Assembly (NCBI GenBank): GCA_022827405.1
Contig: JAJDTA010000217.1
Span: 1-36,221, forward strand
DNA length: 36,221 bases
Source: Acidimicrobiia bacterium
GTDB taxonomy: Bacteria; Actinomycetota; Acidimicrobiia; Acidimicrobiales; Bin134
Direction: 5' to 3'
Within the stretch, counting starts at the first letter, position 1. The number at the start of each line of letters is the position of its first letter. The translations under genes were made by a program, and so were the position numbers. Positions 7,592 to 15,985 of this stretch are shown here, one piece after another. The notes under the pieces were generated by a model. The model did not search any database, was not told the origin of the DNA, and saw nothing but the letters and a program-made list of their open reading frames with translations.

Positions 7592-10500
7592 TCAGCTCTG
7601 TTGGAGAAGTACCTTCGATTCCGAGGCTACCACCACTTTTTCGGAAAGCACCTTGGAGCTTCCCCCCGGCTTCATCGACACGCCGTAGAGGCAGTCGGCG
7701 GCCTCCATGGTGCGCTTCTGGTGGCTCACAATCAGCAATTGGGCATCGGCCCTGAACTCGTCGATGAGCTGGAGAAAGCGATGCAGGTTGACGTCGTCGA
7801 GCGCGGCCTCCACCTCGTCCATGACATAGAACGGCGACGGACGGCTCCGGAACACCGCAAATAGAAAAGCGAGCGCGGTGAGCGAGCGCTCCCCGCCCGA
7901 CAACAGGCTCAGGCGCCGGATGTTCTTGCCCGATGGCCGGGCCTCGATCTCCACCCCGGTGTCCAGCAGGGCATCAGGCTGGGTGACCCGCAGCTTGCCT
8001 TCGCCGCCGGGAAACAGCGTCTGAAACAGTTCGGCGAAATTGCGCTCAACATCGGCAAAGGCAGACGAGAACACGCTCACGATTTCCTCGTCGATCTTGC
8101 GGATCACTTTGCGGAGCTCACGGCGGCTCTGGCGGATGTCGTCGATCTGACCCTGGGTGAAGTCGTGGCGCTCCAACAGCGCCTCGTACTCCTCCAGCGC
8201 CAACGGGTTCACCGGCCCCATGATGCGCAGCTCTTGCTCCAATGCCCTTATCCGGTCGACGGGCACCACGCCCGGCTCCAAGGGCGGGCAATCGGTGGCC
8301 ACCGCTTCACCGGGTTCGCAGTCCAACTCCCGACGGCACCGGTCAACCGAGGCTTCCAGCCTGACTCCCGCCTCGGCCAACTCGATCTCCACGCTGCGGT
8401 CCTTCTCCTGGCACTGCCCGAGCCGGGCCTCGGCCTGAGCCCGCTGGCCTCGCAGATCCTCCAGCTCCCGCACGGCTGCCGCGGCCGCTTTTGACTCCTC
8501 GGCCCGCCGACGGCGCAGATCTTCTAGCTGCCCCCCCACCGCTTCGAGCCCGTCGGCCACCCAGCCAGCCAACTCGCCGATGACCGCCAGCCGGGTATCG
8601 AGGGCCTCTCGACGAGAGGTGGCCTCAACGCGGGCGTCCGCCATCCGGCTCAGCCGGCGCTCGATGTCGCCACGCTGCGCGGTCAGCAAGCGGCGTCGCT
8701 CATCCAACCCCGCCGACTTCACTTGGAGTTCGGAGCGAAGGCTGTTCACCGCCTGCGACTGCCGGGACAGCTCGTCGCGGGCTCGATTCATGCTCTCGGC
8801 CCGCTCAGCCTGCTCCGCCTCCTGGGCTTCGAGCTGAGGCAGCTCTTGGCCCAGCTCGTCGGCCCGGCGGTGGTCCTCAGCGATCTTGTCCTCCAACTCG
8901 CCTCGACGAGGCCCAAGCGCGGCAATCTCCACCTCGGCGTCGCGCAGCTTCCGTTCGGCGGCATTGGCCCGATTCCTAACACTGGCCACTGCCCCAGACT
9001 GGGTCTGAACTCCTAGTCGGGCTTGGTCGGTGGCCTGCACGGCCAGCTCGAGCCGGCTATCAGCCGAACTCAGCTCCTGCTTCACGGCATCGACTTGGTG
9101 ATCTGCCCGAGCCGACTCCCGCTCAGCCTCCTCGAGCAATCCCTTTGTGGCCCCCGAATGGCGCACGCCTACCCGCCAGCCCGACGGGGAGAACCGGTCG
9201 CCCCGGCGAGTGACAACCACAGCGGACGGATCGGCAACCGCTGCCGCGACCGCCTCCTCAGCGGTGTCCACCACCCCGACCCCCCCAACCAAGACATCCA
9301 AAAGGCCATCCACACCCACCGTCGAAGACCGCACATGGGAGCGAAGGGGTGTGCCAATAACCGGAGCAGACGGTGAACTGCCCAACGCGCCCAGGGCCAA
9401 CACTGCACCGCCCACGTTGTCGGCCTCCAGCGTGGCGATGGCCCGCATAGCCACGTCGGTGTCGGTGGCCACCACCGCGGCCACCGCTTCGCCGGCCGCG
9501 GCCTCAAATGCCGCCTCCCATCCTCGGTCGATGTCCACAACCTCTAACAGGGTGCCGACGACGCCCTCGATGCCAGCCAGCCGTTGGGCGCCGGACAGGT
9601 CGCGGGCCTCGTCCAGGGCCAACGACAGCGCCTCTCGCCGAGCCCCCCACGCTTGCTGATCACCCACGGCATCAGCCAGAGCCGCCCTCGACCGTTCTCG
9701 GGCCTCCCGAGCCTCCTCGCATTCCTGCTCGGCAGCCGCGAGCTCCTGTTGTTTTATCTCCTGAGCCGCCTCGGCATCAGCGGCCTCGACCCATGATCGG
9801 TCCAACTTCCCAGCGAGTTCCTGGCGACGCGACTCCAATTCCTCCAGACTGCGCCCCAGCCGATCCGCCTCGGCCCGATCCCGCTGGATCGATGCCTCCA
9901 GCGCCCTCATCTCGCCTCTCAACCGGGGGGCGTCCGACGCGGCAGCCGGCAGATCTTGGCCCCCCCACTCATCGTCGAACGACTGCCGGAGCTTCTCCAG
10001 CTGCTGCTCGGCATCGGCAACCGCGGCGGTATCAGGGCCCAATGCCACCGCCTCGGAATCCACCTCGGTCAGCTCTTTGCCCAGTCGGTCCGACTCGGCT
10101 TCCAGCGTGGCCACAACGTCTTCGTCCACTCCGGCGCTGCGGTCGCGCTGCACCCGCAGAGTTCGCTCCGACAACAGCGCGCCCAGCCCCCGTAGGCGCT
10201 CGTTGAGCCCTTCGAACCGCATCAGCGCATTGCTGATGTCCTGCCCATCGGCGGCTGACAGCCGGGCTTCGGCCACGGCCACGTCTCGATCCAGGGCCTC
10301 AGCTTGCACCGTTAGCCGCTGTATCTCCTGGCGATTGGCCGCCTGGTCCTGGGTCAGCTGGCCAACCCGGTGGCGAAACTGCCTTATCTCCTGCCCGGCC
10401 AGGTACCGGCGAAGGGTGCTCAGCTCCGCCAGTAGACCGCCGTGGCGGCGGGCTGCCTCGGCTTGACGCTCCAGCGGCCGAAGCTGGCGGCGGATCTCCC

Positions 10501-11086
10501 GCACCACGTCGGACAGCCGGGTGAGGTTGGCCTCGGTCGCCGCCAACCGCCGCTCGGACTTTTCCTTGCGGCGGCGATACTTCAGCACACCGGCAGCCTC
10601 CTCGATTACCGCCCGGCGGTCTTCGGGCCGGGCGCTCAACACCCCCTCGATCTGGCGCTGGGACACGATCACATGCTGTTGGCGGCCAACACCGGTATCG
10701 CTGAGCAGCTCTTGGATGTCGAGGAGACGACAAGGCACACCGTTGATGGCGTAGGTGCTGTCCCCGCTGCGGAACAGCGTGCGAGTGATGGTTACCTCTT
10801 CGAACTCGATGGGCAGTAGGTGGGCGGTGTTGTCGATGCTCAGCGACACCTCCGCTCGACCCAAGCCCGGCCGGGCGGTGGTTCCCGCGAAGATGACATC
10901 GTCCATCTTGGCCGAGCGCACCGCAGTGGGGGCCTGAGCGCCCAATGCCCAGGCCACCGCATCCACCACGTTGGATTTGCCGCTCCCATTGGGACCCACA
11001 ATCACCGTCACACCCGGCTCGAAGACCAGCGTGGTGGAGTCGGCAAAGGATTTGAACCCTTTGAGGGTCAACGCCTTCAAAAACAC
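7592..11086 (-). CDS. smc: Chromosome segregation protein SMC
   Basis: SMC is the ATPase of the condensin complex that organises and segregates chromosomes. The 1164-residue product has an N-terminal head with Walker A GPNGSGKSN (31-39) and two long coiled-coil arms rich in Arg, Glu and Ala. The hinge begins near GIEGVVGTLLEVVDID and includes RGDRFSPSGWRVG. The C-terminal head carries the signature LSGGERSLTALAF and Walker B FYVMDEVEAALDD. Length is typical. It is followed after 16 bases by the HtrA-like gene and preceded by the mutM-like gene. Partners ScpA and ScpB are not in the window. Confidence 0.97.
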   Translation of the reverse strand: MFLKALTLKGFKSFADSTTLVFEPGVTVIVGPNGSGKSNVVDAVAWALGAQAPTAVRSAKMDDVIFAGTTARPGLGRAEVSLSIDNTAHLLPIEFEEVTITRTLFRSGDSTYAINGVPCRLLDIQELLSDTGVGRQQHVIVSQRQIEGVLSARPEDRRAVIEEAAGVLKYRRRKEKSERRLAATEANLTRLSDVVREIRRQLRPLERQAEAARRHGGLLAELSTLRRYLAGQEIRQFRHRVGQLTQDQAANRQEIQRLTVQAEALDRDVAVAEARLSAADGQDISNALMRFEGLNERLRGLGALLSERTLRVQRDRSAGVDEDVVATLEAESDRLGKELTEVDSEAVALGPDTAAVADAEQQLEKLRQSFDDEWGGQDLPAAASDAPRLRGEMRALEASIQRDRAEADRLGRSLEELESRRQELAGKLDRSWVEAADAEAAQEIKQQELAAAEQECEEAREARERSRAALADAVGDQQAWGARREALSLALDEARDLSGAQRLAGIEGVVGTLLEVVDIDRGWEAAFEAAAGEAVAAVVATDTDVAMRAIATLEADNVGGAVLALGALGSSPSAPVIGTPLRSHVRSSTVGVDGLLDVLVGGVGVVDTAEEAVAAAVADPSAVVVTRRGDRFSPSGWRVGVRHSGATKGLLEEAERESARADHQVDAVKQELSSADSRLELAVQATDQARLGVQTQSGAVASVRNRANAAERKLRDAEVEIAALGPRRGELEDKIAEDHRRADELGQELPQLEAQEAEQAERAESMNRARDELSRQSQAVNSLRSELQVKSAGLDERRRLLTAQRGDIERRLSRMADARVEATSRREALDTRLAVIGELAGWVADGLEAVGGQLEDLRRRRAEESKAAAAAVRELEDLRGQRAQAEARLGQCQEKDRSVEIELAEAGVRLEASVDRCRRELDCEPGEAVATDCPPLEPGVVPVDRIRALEQELRIMGPVNPLALEEYEALLERHDFTQGQIDDIRQSRRELRKVIRKIDEEIVSVFSSAFADVERNFAELFQTLFPGGEGKLRVTQPDALLDTGVEIEARPSGKNIRRLSLLSGGERSLTALAFLFAVFRSRPSPFYVMDEVEAALDDVNLHRFLQLIDEFRADAQLLIVSHQKRTMEAADCLYGVSMKPGGSSKVLSEKVVVASESKVLLQQS

Positions 11087-11131
11087 TCATTCGACCCTAC
11101 CCAGCGGCGGGCCGCGATTTGTGGAACTAGC

Positions 11132-11148
11132 CGACCGGAAGCCGGTCG
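11132..11148 (-). other. Perfect 7-bp hairpin between mutM-like gene and smc
   Basis: CGACCGG and CCGGTCG flank a 3-base loop, four bases after the mutM-like stop codon and about 46 bases before the smc start. There is no downstream T run, so it is not a textbook intrinsic terminator. It could be a processing site, a weak attenuator or chance in GC-rich DNA. Confidence 0.35.
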
Positions 11149-11152
11149 CCGG

Positions 11153-11998
11153 TCAGATCTGGCACTGCTCGCAGTAGTACGTCCAGCGGCGGCGGAAGCG
11201 GTATTTCTGAATGGGGCGGTGGCAGCGGGGACAGGGATGCCCGTTCCTTCCCGCCTGCTTGAACACGTTTAGGTACTCCTCGTACCCCCCGGGCTGGCCG
11301 TGGACATCAACGTAATATCCATCTTCCAGCGTGGCGCCTCGATGCTTGGCCGCGTCATGCAGGGTCTCCACCATCGCCCGGTGCAGCCGGCGGACTTCCT
11401 GGGGCCCCAACGAGTTGGTCAGGCGGTCGTAGCGCAACCCGGCCGTGAACAGAATCTCGTCGGAGTACATCTCACCCAATCCGACCACCACCCGGTCATC
11501 GGTCAACACCGCCTTCAGCTTGGCGTCTTGGGCCAAGAGAATCTGACCGAACATCCGCCACGGCACGGGCTGATCAAGAGGGTCGATACCCATTCCCTCT
11601 AGCTCGGGGACTTCCTCCACCAACCTCTCAGCGTTGGCCAGAAACAGTTGGGCATCACCGACCCCGTCGATCAACCGAAGCTGACCGCTCTTGGTGAATG
11701 TGATCGCAAGCACGGTGTTGGGCTCGTTCTGGTCTCGGTTGGCATGACGCCGCAACTGGCCGCCGGTTCCCAAATGGGCCACGATCACATCCTCGCTGTC
11801 CAAGCTCATGATCAAGTACAGGCCGCGACGACGCACACCGGTGATCTTCGCCTTCTCCAGGCGGCTGGCGAACTTCTTCGCCCCGCCTGATCGCTTCATC
11901 ACCCGGGTGTCCATGACTTCCACCGACTTGATGCGGAGGCTGGACAGCTCTCTGTCCAAGTCGCGGCGGATGGTCTCGATCTCCGGCAAGGCGATCAT
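11153..11998 (-). CDS. Fpg/MutM-fold protein lacking key catalytic residues
   Basis: The 281-residue product aligns along its length with formamidopyrimidine-DNA glycosylase (MutM/Fpg) and keeps the C-terminal zinc finger (Cys256, 259, 276, 279) with its DNA-contacting Arg (R271 region, RRWTYYC). The catalytic parts differ. Fpg starts MPELPE, with Pro2 as nucleophile and Glu3 as acid; here the start is MIALPE. The Lys57 position in RR-G/A-K-YL is Leu60, the Asn168 position in GxGNIY is Glu176 (GLGEMY), and the D-x-RRFG loop is absent. AGGAG stands seven bases before this ATG, so the start is well supported. It sits at the usual mutM place between rnc and smc. I infer a DNA-binding protein without normal Pro2 glycosylase chemistry; a divergent mechanism cannot be excluded. 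Confidence 0.85.
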   Translation of the reverse strand: MIALPEIETIRRDLDRELSSLRIKSVEVMDTRVMKRSGGAKKFASRLEKAKITGVRRRGLYLIMSLDSEDVIVAHLGTGGQLRRHANRDQNEPNTVLAITFTKSGQLRLIDGVGDAQLFLANAERLVEEVPELEGMGIDPLDQPVPWRMFGQILLAQDAKLKAVLTDDRVVVGLGEMYSDEILFTAGLRYDRLTNSLGPQEVRRLHRAMVETLHDAAKHRGATLEDGYYVDVHGQPGGYEEYLNVFKQAGRNGHPCPRCHRPIQKYRFRRRWTYYCEQCQI

Positions 11999-12020
11999 AG
12001 AATGGCTCCTGTCAGTGGGG

Positions 12021-12731
12021 TCATGGGGCAGTTCCCGTCGTCGCGACCGTCAGAGTCTGCCAAGCTGAGGCCGCCGCCGCCTGCTCAGCCTGCTTCTTCG
12101 ATCGGCCCTCGCCTCGACCGCTTTCTTTGCCGTCGACATGCACGACGGCCAAAAACCGCTTCTCGTGGTCGGGACCCTTCTCGGTGAGACGGTACTCGGG
12201 CGCGTGCTGCCGGTTTCGGGCGCAGTACTCCTGGAGCCGGGTCTTGAAGTCCCGTATGCCGGGACCCTGGGCCGCAACGGCAATCCGCTCGGACAGCCAC
12301 CCTCCGACCAAATCAACCAGCACCTCCCAGGGAGCATCCAGGTAGACGGCGCCGATCACCGCCTCCATGGCATCGGAAAGAATCGATAGCTTTTCCCGCC
12401 CGCCGGAACCATCCTCACCGCGTCCCAGCAGTAGGGCCTCCCCCAACCCGAGCTCAACGGCCAGATCGGCCAGCGTCTCGGCTCGTACAATCTCGGCACG
12501 CAGCGGGGCCAGCTTTCCTTCGGCCATCTCGGGGTAGGCGGCATATATGTGGTCGGTCACCACCAGAGCCAGCACGGCGTCACCCAAAAACTCCAGCCGC
12601 TCATTGGACGATGCTCCCTCATGGTCGGCGCACCATGAGCGATGGGTCATTGCCTCCACCAGCAGGCTGGGCTGAGCGAAGGCGTAGCCGAGGCGTTCGG
12701 CTAGAGCGGCGAGGTTGGGGTCGGCAGTCAG
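12021..12731 (-). CDS. rnc: Ribonuclease III, probable CTG start
   Basis: RNase III cuts double-stranded RNA in rRNA and mRNA processing. The catalytic domain shows the signature NERLEFLGDAVLALVV, and a C-terminal double-stranded-RNA-binding domain follows (DFKTRLQEYC, then GRSKKQAEQAAA). The first ordinary starts, GTG 12659 and ATG 12650, would cut off the conserved first helix. In-frame codons upstream encode AERLGYAFAQPSLLVEAMTHRS, as in full-length family members. The only plausible initiator there is CTG at 12729-12731, which overlaps the acpP stop as CTGA, in the same way as the ATGA and GTGA overlaps elsewhere in the cluster. This gives 236 aa, the normal size. No clear Shine-Dalgarno sequence is present. 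The family is certain and the start is inference. Confidence 0.88.
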   Translation of the reverse strand: MTADPNLAALAERLGYAFAQPSLLVEAMTHRSWCADHEGASSNERLEFLGDAVLALVVTDHIYAAYPEMAEGKLAPLRAEIVRAETLADLAVELGLGEALLLGRGEDGSGGREKLSILSDAMEAVIGAVYLDAPWEVLVDLVGGWLSERIAVAAQGPGIRDFKTRLQEYCARNRQHAPEYRLTEKGPDHEKRFLAVVHVDGKESGRGEGRSKKQAEQAAAASAWQTLTVATTGTAP

Positions 12732-13027
12732 GAGCTTCGGCTCAGCCGGCCGTGGACATAGTCGACGGCGTCGCGCACCGTCTTGAGATCTTCCAAGTCC
12801 TCGTCGTCGATGCTGAACCCCACCGTCCTCTCGCTCAACTCCTCTTCCAGGGTTTCCACCAGCTCGATAAGGGCAAGAGAATCGGCGTCGAGGTCATCGG
12901 CAAACGCCTGGCCCTCCGTAATGCGATCGGGGGAGATCTCCAAAATATCGGCCAAGCACTCCCGCACGAGCAACAAGACTCCCTCGCGGTCCAGTGGGCT
13001 CTGTTCGACATGGGTTTCGGATGGCAC
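12728..13027 (-). CDS. acpP: Acyl carrier protein
   Basis: Acyl carrier protein carries growing fatty acyl chains on a phosphopantetheine arm. The four-helix fold is recognisable, with the attachment site DADSLALIEL (Ser50 from this start). The following helix (ELVETLEEELSE) and the DLKTVRDAVDYV helix are typical. I prefer GTG 13027 (99 aa), which has GGAG five bases upstream; a TTG at 13051 would add eight residues but has no ribosome site. A TATACT at 13065-13070 (minus sense) could be a -10 box, without a good -35. The gene lies between plsX and rnc. Confidence 0.93.
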   Translation of the reverse strand: MPSETHVEQSPLDREGVLLLVRECLADILEISPDRITEGQAFADDLDADSLALIELVETLEEELSERTVGFSIDDEDLEDLKTVRDAVDYVHGRLSRSS

Positions 13028-14922: not shown

Positions 14923-15513
14923 TCAGCCCACGGTGTCTTGATCGAAGAAGCCGTCGTCGGGCTCCGGTTCAGGATCGGGGCCATAGGCCCGAACGAGGTC
15001 GGCCAGCGGATCGCCTTGAAGCCGGGTCCGGGCCTCCTTCACCGTGTTCAGAATCCGCTCGAGGGCGTTCTCAAAGCTCCCCAACTTGGTGTCGCAGTAG
15101 TCCTCGGTCTCGAGACGCAGCCGGCGAGCGGTGGCTTCGGCTTCTTCCACCATGCGCCGGGCCCGCTGCTCGGCCGCCTTGACCACCTCCGTGCGCTGGA
15201 CCATGGCCTCGGCCTGTGATCGAGCAGCCACCAGTATCTCGTCCCCCTCCCGGTGGACCCTCTTCAAGAAGTCCTCTCGCTCCTTCAACAGCCAGCGGGC
15301 GGCCCGCATCTCCTCGGGCAGCCGGTCGAGGCAGTTCTGAAGCAGCTCCAGGACCTCGTCTTTGTTGATCATGGAGGATGCCGAGAGCGGCATGGGACGG
15401 GCCGCGTCCACCAGCTCTATGGCCCGCCGCAGAAGCAGGTCGAACTCGGGATCTACGAATGTCCCGGTGGCCGAGTAGTGGGTTGCCGTGGTGTTGGGAT
15501 CGGGGTCAGTCAT
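14923..15513 (-). CDS. SepIVA/DivIVA-like coiled-coil septation protein
   Basis: A 196-residue protein with a short disordered N-terminus, a helical start (AIELVDAARPMPLSASSMINKDEVLELL) and a long coiled coil rich in Arg, Glu and Ala. The segments TEVVKAAEQRARRMVEEAE and DYCDTKLGSFE closely resemble mycobacterial SepIVA (Rv2927c), which organises septation and lies beside a DUF177 gene near rnc, fpg and smc. The same neighbours occur here. The frame is open further upstream, but AGAGGT precedes the ATG at 15513, giving an eight-base overlap with coaD. Homology and context are strong; a division role in this organism is inferred. Confidence 0.82.
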   Translation of the reverse strand: MTDPDPNTTATHYSATGTFVDPEFDLLLRRAIELVDAARPMPLSASSMINKDEVLELLQNCLDRLPEEMRAARWLLKEREDFLKRVHREGDEILVAARSQAEAMVQRTEVVKAAEQRARRMVEEAEATARRLRLETEDYCDTKLGSFENALERILNTVKEARTRLQGDPLADLVRAYGPDPEPEPDDGFFDQDTVG

Positions 15514-15985
15514 CTCGATACCTCTCGATAAGTCGTTTGGCCACCGGTGGGGGAACCATGGAGTCAATCTCCTGCCCGAAGCGGGCCAACTCGCGGATCA
15601 GCTTGGAGGCCAAAAATGAGTGCTTGCTGGCCGAGGGGATGAACAAGGTGTGCACCCCGGAAATGGCCTGGTTCATCTGGGCCATCTGAAGCTCGTTCTC
15701 GAAGTCGGAAACCGCTCGGAGACCCTTCACGATGAAATCGACCCCCTCATCTTGGGCCAGGTCCACCACCAGTTTGGCGAACATGGTGGTCCGCACATTG
15801 GGCAGATGGGCAAAAGACTCCTCCAACATCGCCTTGCGCTCATCCAACTCGAACAAAGGGGCCTTCTGGGGATTGAGCACCGCCGCCACAATCACCTCTT
15901 CAAACAGACGCGCCGCGGTCTCCACGATCTCCACGTGTCCGTTGTGTATGGGGTCGAACGATCCGGGGAACAGGACTCGCGTCAC
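15506..15985 (-). CDS. coaD: Phosphopantetheine adenylyltransferase CoaD
   Basis: CoaD joins ATP and 4'-phosphopantetheine to make dephospho-CoA, the fourth step of CoA synthesis. The 159-residue product carries the nucleotidyltransferase motif DPIHNGH (His14 and His17), VKGLRAVSDFENE and the C-terminal substrate loop SKHSFLASKLIREL. The start is GTG 15985, preceded by AGGAGA. CoaD feeds the phosphopantetheine supply for the nearby ACP. It is a normal family member. Confidence 0.97.
   Translation of the reverse strand: MTRVLFPGSFDPIHNGHVEIVETAARLFEEVIVAAVLNPQKAPLFELDERKAMLEESFAHLPNVRTTMFAKLVVDLAQDEGVDFIVKGLRAVSDFENELQMAQMNQAISGVHTLFIPSASKHSFLASKLIRELARFGQEIDSMVPPPVAKRLIERYRDD

Follow-up and report, generated by a model that had tools for sequence, protein, structure and literature searches.

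Textbooks define the repair enzyme Fpg/MutM by its N-terminal proline. What kind of protein, then, is encoded by a gene that occupies the mutM position between rnc and smc and specifies no such proline? We address this question for an Acidimicrobiia bacterium (GCA_022827405.1), using as our window the whole 36,221-nucleotide stretch of contig JAJDTA010000217.1. A preliminary description of this DNA had reported a full-length, unbroken frame opening M-I-A-L-P-E-I-E-T behind an AGGAG motif. The frame is present as described, on the minus strand from 11998 to 11153, with an ATG start and a product of 281 residues that we term pseudo-MutM (Table 1). No alternative start that would restore Pro2 is seen; the residues just upstream yield no MPE start.

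Read toward smc, the Pfam assignments in the window give the order Cons_hypoth95 methyltransferase, CTP_transf_like protein, an ORF with no match, YceD, FA_synthesis, phosphopantetheine carrier, ribonuclease III, pseudo-MutM, and SMC. The ORF with no Pfam match (14923-15567, minus strand, 214 residues) lies between the YceD and CTP_transf_like genes, and its listed start overlaps the end of its neighbor. A scan of positions 10950-12800 for promoters and terminators found none, a negative of little weight against a chance expectation of 0.2 promoters and 1.4 terminators.

Table 1. Features of the pseudo-MutM gene and its immediate neighbors in the window
Feature	Positions	Strand	Basis
Pseudo-MutM, catalytically degenerate Fpg/MutM ortholog (MutM-A of the rnc-smc locus), 281 aa	11153..11998	-	ORF, Pfam, AlphaFold2, TM-score
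AGGAG ribosome-binding site, 7 nt 5' of the ATG	12006..12010	-	Sequence reading
Codons 2-3 (Ile2, Ala3); Pro2 nucleophile and Glu3 in Fpg enzymes	11990..11995	-	Sequence/alignment
Codon 60 (Leu), catalytic Lys57 site	11819..11821	-	Alignment
Codon 78 (Thr), wedge Met site	11765..11767	-	Alignment
Codons 112-116 (GVGDA) instead of the P-R-T-F-G intercalation loop	11651..11665	-	Alignment
Codon 176 (Glu), Asn168 site, H2TH loop	11471..11473	-	Alignment
Helix 199-218 with R203, R204, R207, K218	11345..11404	-	Predicted model and residue comparison
C-terminal zinc finger, four Cys intact in the window copy	11156..11242	-	ORF and alignment
rnc (ribonuclease III), upstream neighbor, 22-nt gap	12021..12659	-	Pfam
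smc, downstream neighbor, 66-nt gap	7592..11086	-	Pfam

An Fpg fold without the Fpg catalytic residues

By homology, both the domains and the fold of pseudo-MutM place it in the Fpg/Nei (H2TH) superfamily. The Pfam domains Fapy_DNA_glyco (2.4e-21, 77 bits against a cut-off of 25.5) and H2TH (3.6e-16, 59.4 bits against 34.7) are both recognized, and zf-FPG_IleRS falls just under its cut-off (19.7 against 21.3). The best PDB matches by sequence are MutM chains (2.3e-37). An AlphaFold2 model built on 91 aligned rows (pLDDT 93.7, pTM 0.90) matches MutM structures in Foldseek with a TM-score of 0.90 and an rmsd of 2.1 (3jr5). Of the features that mark a MutM/Fpg enzyme, pseudo-MutM has the four zinc cysteines and Arg258; Pro2/Glu3, Lys57/Asn168, and the wedge are absent, and the protein scores below both main NCBIfam Fpg equivalog cut-offs (203.3 against 212 bits and 189 against 203.3 bits).

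Aligned to Bst MutM and to intact orthologs, pseudo-MutM lacks Pro2, Glu3, Lys57, Met73, the Arg/Phe wedge, and Asn168. The alignment confirms the earlier readings of Leu60 at the Lys57 site, Glu176 at the Asn168 site, and a missing intercalation loop (GVGDA for PRTFG), and it places Thr78 in the Met column and Val and Asp in the Arg/Phe wedge columns. Glu6 and the four-Cys zinc finger are intact, as had been stated, and His75 and the Arg258 equivalent, which the preliminary description did not mention, are also kept. A NEIL3-like protein would have a residue 2 exposed by removal of the methionine, Glu at position 3, and a retained lysine; pseudo-MutM has Ile2, Ala3, and Leu60 at these sites. 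The loss of these residues is observed directly, and from it we infer that pseudo-MutM would be unable to perform Fpg chemistry.

The gene is conserved in every member of its genus that was drawn. A full-length copy with 73-94% identity is present in all 17 of the other same-genus genomes drawn, and I/L2, A3, L60, and E176 occur in 18 of the 18 genus members read. Across these 18 genomes, the median dN/dS (Nei-Gojobori, 136 of 153 pairs usable) is 0.083 for pseudo-MutM; rnc gives 0.078, and smc, over its N-terminal 400 codons, 0.089. Pseudo-MutM is under ordinary purifying selection, comparable to that on rnc and smc. A sequence error or a pseudogene is ruled out by the low dN/dS and by the same changes in all 17 same-genus copies. 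Pseudo-MutM shows one mark of a pseudoenzyme, in that its catalytic residues are gone while purifying selection persists; the other mark, a noncatalytic function, is proposed below.

Two states of the rnc-smc copy and a second Fpg

The preliminary description had proposed aligning rnc-smc orthologs at the Pro2, Glu3, Lys57, and Asn168 sites. In the class, we collected 138 positional orthologs, 58 from two similarity searches (30 loci each, two shared) and 80 fetched by place, and counted a copy as dead if not all of K57, M73, R108, and F110 were present. The alignment resolves two states, 58 canonical and 80 degenerate, in a sample that leans toward relatives of the window protein; most of the loci were the leading entries in lists ordered by resemblance to it, and the dead share is no measure of prevalence. 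An outcome in which orthologs begin MPELPE and the window copy is an isolated error was therefore half right: 58 of the 138 positional orthologs are canonical, and the window copy is not isolated.

All of the 58 canonical copies contain P2, E3, K57, M73, R108, F110, N168, and R258, and 57 also have all four Cys. The 80 dead copies retain P2 in 16 cases, E3 in 57, K57 in one, R108 in four, N168 in 10, and M73 and F110 in none; R258 persists in 38 and a full Cys4 set in 43, the His75 position is lost in 62, and the whole P2/E3/K57/N168 set is found in none. Replacements at those four positions vary widely, with no common set seen. Among the columns that intact copies conserve and dead copies lose are those of the catalytic residues, the wedge, and Asn168, along with several whose weight is uncertain. 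Glu6 and the Tyr, Asp, and Glu of the YSDE motif are present in 80 of 80 dead class copies, and the supporting positions L4, E8, R57, K160, and D178 (Bst numbering), as named in PMC3188539, are still conserved. Full-length frames span about 270-308 residues across families. The rnc gene lies upstream on the same strand at 138 of 138 class loci, and smc is also seen downstream at 125, the other 13 showing rnc only.

Several individual copies depart from these patterns. One copy (L056, genome G151) is counted as dead yet keeps P2, E3, and K57, and K57 is likewise kept in copies that are dead by the same rule in G700, G612, G582, G270, and G471. The Cys4 set is incomplete in 37 of the 80 dead class copies (L054, L062, L069, L112, and others), typically with the first two Cys changed to Ser and the fourth changed or lost. 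Dead copies of f80 (L062, L067, L070, L080, L110, and L111) carry three extra N-terminal residues (e.g., MTVAYELPE), with the Pro site behind the extension, and the extension is longer in L069 and L078 (f7). The start was missed or misplaced by our script in rows L079, L081, L096, L319, L334, L338, and L347. With 80 of 138 class loci degenerate, in a sample biased to relatives of the window protein, mutM labels at the rnc-smc locus may mislead.

The window genome contains four PF01149 members. The preliminary description had suggested checking the genomes for a further, canonical mutM, and in the window genome one of the four, which we call MutM-B (contig C162, L001:1498-2301), is indeed canonical. 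MutM-B belongs to the same family as pseudo-MutM, with 27-30% identity. Because it has all of the catalytic residues, MutM-B is likely the working Fpg of the window genome. A further Fpg/Nei relative on contig C141 of G000 (L003, L196) reads VSLPEIIEVEYYRR; a start at its L codon would give MPEIIEVE, resembling MPEILE relatives, and its zinc set is C-D-C-H in the alignment.

With presence defined by E<=1e-50 and all 138 class genomes searched, MutM-B is found in 70 of 80 dead genomes versus none of 58 intact ones. The strongest match among the intact class genomes (1.9e-42) is the rnc-smc copy of G019 itself. Of the class MutM-B copies read, 22 of 22 are canonical at all eight positions and have Cys4. 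The MutM-B gene of genus member G475 (C91:17697-18494) has one in-frame TAG, which is either a sequence error or a real lesion. Among the ten dead class genomes without MutM-B, other Fpg/Nei copies were read in seven. Four of these, all f14, carry another Fpg, canonical except at R258 and in one case also without Pro2; G151, G195 (f84), and G191 have Fpg/Nei relatives of another type that is found in intact G079 and G107 as well. G230, G259, and G298 have extra copies too.

Beyond the class, a profile of the dead copies run against 296 genomes of the phylum returned 30 loci, and the 22 non-class loci among them all keep K57 and N168. Reading 20 further places yielded 11 dead copies, in f88, f96, f100, f111, f118, f125, and f144. 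We then fetched 40 loci with their flanks, 32 from these seven families and 8 from f93, f120, f123, and f139. Every one of the 32 copies from the former is dead and has rnc upstream, in families chosen partly for known dead members; all 8 from the latter were counted as intact. MutM-B is present in 30 of these 32 dead genomes versus none of 21 intact ones outside the class, the 21 being those 8 plus 13 from f94, f97, f123, f128, and f136. Nine of the 21 "intact" copies, all among the further 13, are of the Met1 form described below, in which Pro2 is deleted, and one of the 21 genomes (G545) was read in part. Of the 30 outside-class MutM-B loci, 28 are canonical; L299 has one zinc Cys changed, and the start of L319 is unresolved.

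For a held-out sample, we scored 397 genomes of the order for MutM-B and, from those with an unread rnc-smc copy, chose 10 among the 180 positives and 10 negatives. All 10 positives are dead and 8 of 10 negatives are intact, a weak result in that 9 of the 10 positives belong to families in which dead copies had already been read. The two negatives that break the rule (G256 and G471, dead without MutM-B) were picked partly for their known-dead families. Five held-out genomes come from new families, one positive (f55) and four negative (f42, f48, f56, and f65), and all five agree with the rule.

Overall, MutM-B occurs in 110 of 124 dead genomes (70/80, 30/32, and 10/12) versus 0 of 87 intact ones (0/58, 0/21, and 0/8), across 211 genomes and 64 family codes; because the genomes are related to one another, we place no reliance on a Fisher test of this association. 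The intact count takes in L289 (G720), which has Leu for M73, no rnc seen, and P2, E3, K57, R108, F110, N168, and R258 present; under the strict rule it drops out, and the intact total is 86. Counted by family code, the dead state occurs with MutM-B in 22 and without it in 3 (f14, f41, and f84), and the intact state without it in 37 and with it in none. Two families are mixed, f21 with 5 dead and 4 intact and f47 with 1 dead and 3 intact, and in both the state follows MutM-B with no exception. The 14 dead genomes without MutM-B are four of f14, three of f84, G151, G191, G298, G612 (with a partial match), G544, G256, and G471.

The rnc-smc copy is seldom missing where MutM-B is present. A copy of the rnc-smc type is found at E<=1e-50 in 166 of the order's 180 MutM-B genomes, and a more sensitive search of the remaining 14 recovered 8 more, of which two are split over contig ends; all 8 are dead and adjoined by rnc and/or smc. 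The copy is thus found in 174 of 180, and the six genomes without it are G205, G324, G382, G480, G487, and G496, four of which are at most 80% complete. All 83 of the copies read among the 174 are dead (65 from the class set, 10 held-out, and 8 recovered). This retention, together with the dN/dS of 0.083, strongly supports the earlier description of the protein as maintained.

How often has catalysis been lost? For the class tree, we masked the catalytic columns and used 127 of 139 rows (12 near-identical genus rows out) and then 87 rows (40 more out); parsimony gives three changes of state. A single dead clade within the class is not rejected (AU p 0.058, or 0.090 without L056). The phylum tree has 104 rows: 29 of 74 main-clade dead copies, 4 of 5 from f21, L056, 25 of 58 intact copies, 7 of the 22 non-class profile loci, 35 of the 40 flank-fetched rows, and 3 MutM-B. 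Here, parsimony gives five changes (5-6 across the bootstrap), and the strongly supported branches alone force two; the bootstrap had not settled, and its support values are rough. With the other phylum families added, a tree that places all dead copies in one clade is rejected (AU p = 0.013, with a log-likelihood difference of 77). These trees make several separate origins of the dead state probable. The branching of the MutM-B tree agrees broadly with taxonomy, with class and outside-class sequences largely apart and families mostly coherent, and for this reason an old second copy that was lost in some lineages is a better fit than a fresh gain of MutM-B each time, although not decisively.

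A separate variant was seen outside the class, in f94, f128, and f136, where the rnc-locus MutM starts Met-Glu-Leu-Pro-Glu and Pro2 is deleted. This Met1 form accounts for 19 of the 22 non-class profile loci and 4 of the 20 further places (L208-L212, L215-L218, L220-L225, L227-L230, L231, and L246-L248). It keeps Lys57, Met73, Arg108, Asn168, Arg258, and Cys4, and L223 and L230 have Leu in place of the wedge Phe. In L209, L212, L228, and L229, the GTG is immediately preceded by a stop codon, so that translation cannot begin farther upstream. Of 13 Met1-form genomes searched, 11 had no other PF01149 match below 1e-20, and G595 and G564 had one. The Met1 amine would occupy the place of the Pro amine, making a primary-amine Fpg possible.

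A candidate retained surface and its possible roles

A set of residues reaches at least 85% conservation in the rnc-smc copies compared, both dead (67) and intact (58), and falls short of it in 20 MutM-B copies. In window numbering, this non-exhaustive list contains K24, R84, F101, T102, R108, D139, W147, D167, R189, D191, R192, E201, R203, R207, K218, D231, V245, and R260 (His in the window copy). MutM-B copies lack the R189/R203/R207/K218 set, R204 is conserved in dead and intact rnc-smc copies, and R192 occurs in Bst MutM too. E6, Y178, D180, E181, R192, and G221 are among the residues invariant across 91 dead and intact copies. Judging from their spacing, R203, R207, and K218 would share one side of the predicted helix 199-218. 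We propose the basic stripe of R189, R192, R203, R204, R207, and K218 on the H2TH domain as a candidate working surface, although residues common to dead and intact copies and absent from MutM-B may instead reflect lineage signal or support of the fold.

We consider it probable that pseudo-MutM is a pseudoenzyme, that MutM-B took over catalysis, and that the rnc-smc copy was kept for a noncatalytic role older than the losses. It is the ortholog of the ordinary Fpg/MutM glycosylase that occupies the rnc-smc slot in many Actinomycetota. Once MutM-B had taken over the repair activity, the rnc-smc copy could have lost catalysis, surviving under purifying selection and rarely being deleted. Because the copy is selected and rarely deleted, a second function independent of catalysis is suggested. 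This function probably predates the losses, since several lineages would have lost catalysis yet kept the gene and since dead and intact copies share residues absent from MutM-B, and it may act in intact copies too. Its physical basis would most likely be partner or nucleic-acid binding through the preserved H2TH domain, especially the basic stripe, rather than lesion recognition. More tentatively, the rnc-smc MutM may be a two-job protein, with a role at the chromosome that is older and independent of catalysis, perhaps exercised with SMC or on nucleoid DNA, and an enzyme activity shed repeatedly and in parallel wherever MutM-B was kept. The link to smc and rnc that had been suggested earlier stands as a matter of position; its weight is limited in that intact copies hold the same position.

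The preliminary description had also raised a DNA-binding damage sensor or nucleoid factor. In such a role, the protein would bind oxidized or abasic DNA uncut, as a sensor or shield, and pass it to MutM-B or other repair. The window copy does keep the H2TH domain, the zinc finger, the Arg258 equivalent, and His75, with a net charge of +4, and Mycobacterium smegmatis Nei2 K51A gives only partial rescue, its authors suggesting that DNA contact carries weight in vivo (PMC11323726). Against this, pseudo-MutM no longer has the wedge or the contacts made by Lys57 and Asn168. Among the 80 dead class copies, Met73 and Phe110 are gone from all 80, Arg108 from 76, K57 from 79, N168 from 70, the His75 position (kept in the window copy) from 62, R258 from 42, and the full Cys4 set from 37. 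Intact copies have a median net charge of +7, compared with +4 in f21 and +1 for the main clade of dead copies. These residue and charge losses argue against Fpg-style lesion probing and are compatible with other DNA or protein binding; we regard a lesion sensor as unlikely.

Equally on record was the idea of a new glycosylase mechanism. The protein might still be an enzyme with altered chemistry, either a monofunctional glycosylase without a Schiff base or a lyase using the Met1 alpha-amine. E6 is present in 80 of 80 dead copies, position 60 is occupied by Leu in 74% of the dead copies compared from the main clade and could be the sign of a new pocket, and Nei2 P2A keeps full glycosylase activity on 5-hydroxyuracil (PMC11323726). 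The window copy, however, has also lost Glu3, Lys57, Asn168, and the wedge, and the E3A and K51A forms of Nei2 are glycosylase-inactive in the same source. The dead copies share no visible new catalytic set, though position 3 is still Glu in 57 of 80. The new mechanism is unsupported by these replacements, and we judge an altered enzyme quite unlikely.

Drift, with the gene a decaying or neutral leftover kept by recent loss or operon structure alone, is very improbable. The catalytic columns do vary freely, and deletions could be penalized by the tight gaps, 22 nt on the rnc side and 66 nt on the smc side, but operon spacing is no explanation of constraint at the protein level, where the dN/dS matches that of rnc and smc, frames remain full length across families, and the six invariant residues listed above persist. 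Just as hard to credit is an RNA role or a noncatalytic partnership with RNase III. In its favor, rnc is the immediate upstream neighbor, in the same orientation, at all 138 class loci; against it, the Pfam scan finds no RNA-binding domain and canonical MutM sits in the same slot, so that position says little.

If pseudo-MutM is, as we favor, a pseudoenzyme kept for a noncatalytic role, a retained noncatalytic Fpg that mostly sits beside its replacement offers a natural experiment that separates the enzymatic role from another one. It would make the second role of the rnc-smc MutM testable by ordinary genetics.

Relation to known Fpg/Nei proteins

Pseudo-MutM is probably a recurrent pseudoenzyme form of the known Fpg family. 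In the open-access literature, we found no description of an Fpg pseudoenzyme at the rnc-smc locus, nor of a second role for the protein there. With canonical Fpg/MutM (Bst MutM, 3jr5/1r2y; E. coli Fpg, 1k82), pseudo-MutM has in common the whole fold (TM 0.90, predicted model), the LPE helix, the H2TH domain, and the zinc finger, and with its intact orthologs also the rnc-smc position. It differs in that Pro2, Glu3, Lys57, Met73, Arg108, Phe110, and Asn168 are all replaced.

The closest actinobacterial case found in the open-access literature is M. tuberculosis Fpg2 (Rv0944), an Fpg homolog that is truncated and without its N-terminal part, according to PMC2734929. Fpg2, however, is a truncation with a complete M. 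smegmatis ortholog and, by its locus tag, lies away from rnc, whereas pseudo-MutM is full length and conserved. Mammalian NEIL3 has an N-terminal Val in place of Pro and a suggested noncatalytic scaffold role (as given in PMC11323726). Unlike pseudo-MutM, NEIL3 is still catalytic and keeps the neighboring Glu. The zincless-finger glycosylases NEIL1 and Arabidopsis MMH are enzymes. Their finger recalls the 37 of 80 dead class copies without a full Cys4 set (PMC9266487), whereas the window copy keeps Cys4.

A further parallel is Nei2 of M. smegmatis, a member of the Fpg/Nei superfamily whose in vivo role survives the loss of Pro2. According to PMC11323726, nei2 P2A and P2C both rescue the psoralen sensitivity of the deletion like wild type, K51A rescues partly, and E3A gives no rescue. 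Both P2 mutants lack AP lyase activity in vitro; P2C also lacks glycosylase activity, which P2A keeps. By analogy, these mutants may serve as a precedent for a catalysis-independent function in the superfamily. The two proteins differ in that Nei2 is a working AP lyase and glycosylase in which E3A fails, whereas pseudo-MutM appears to have lost catalysis in the course of evolution.
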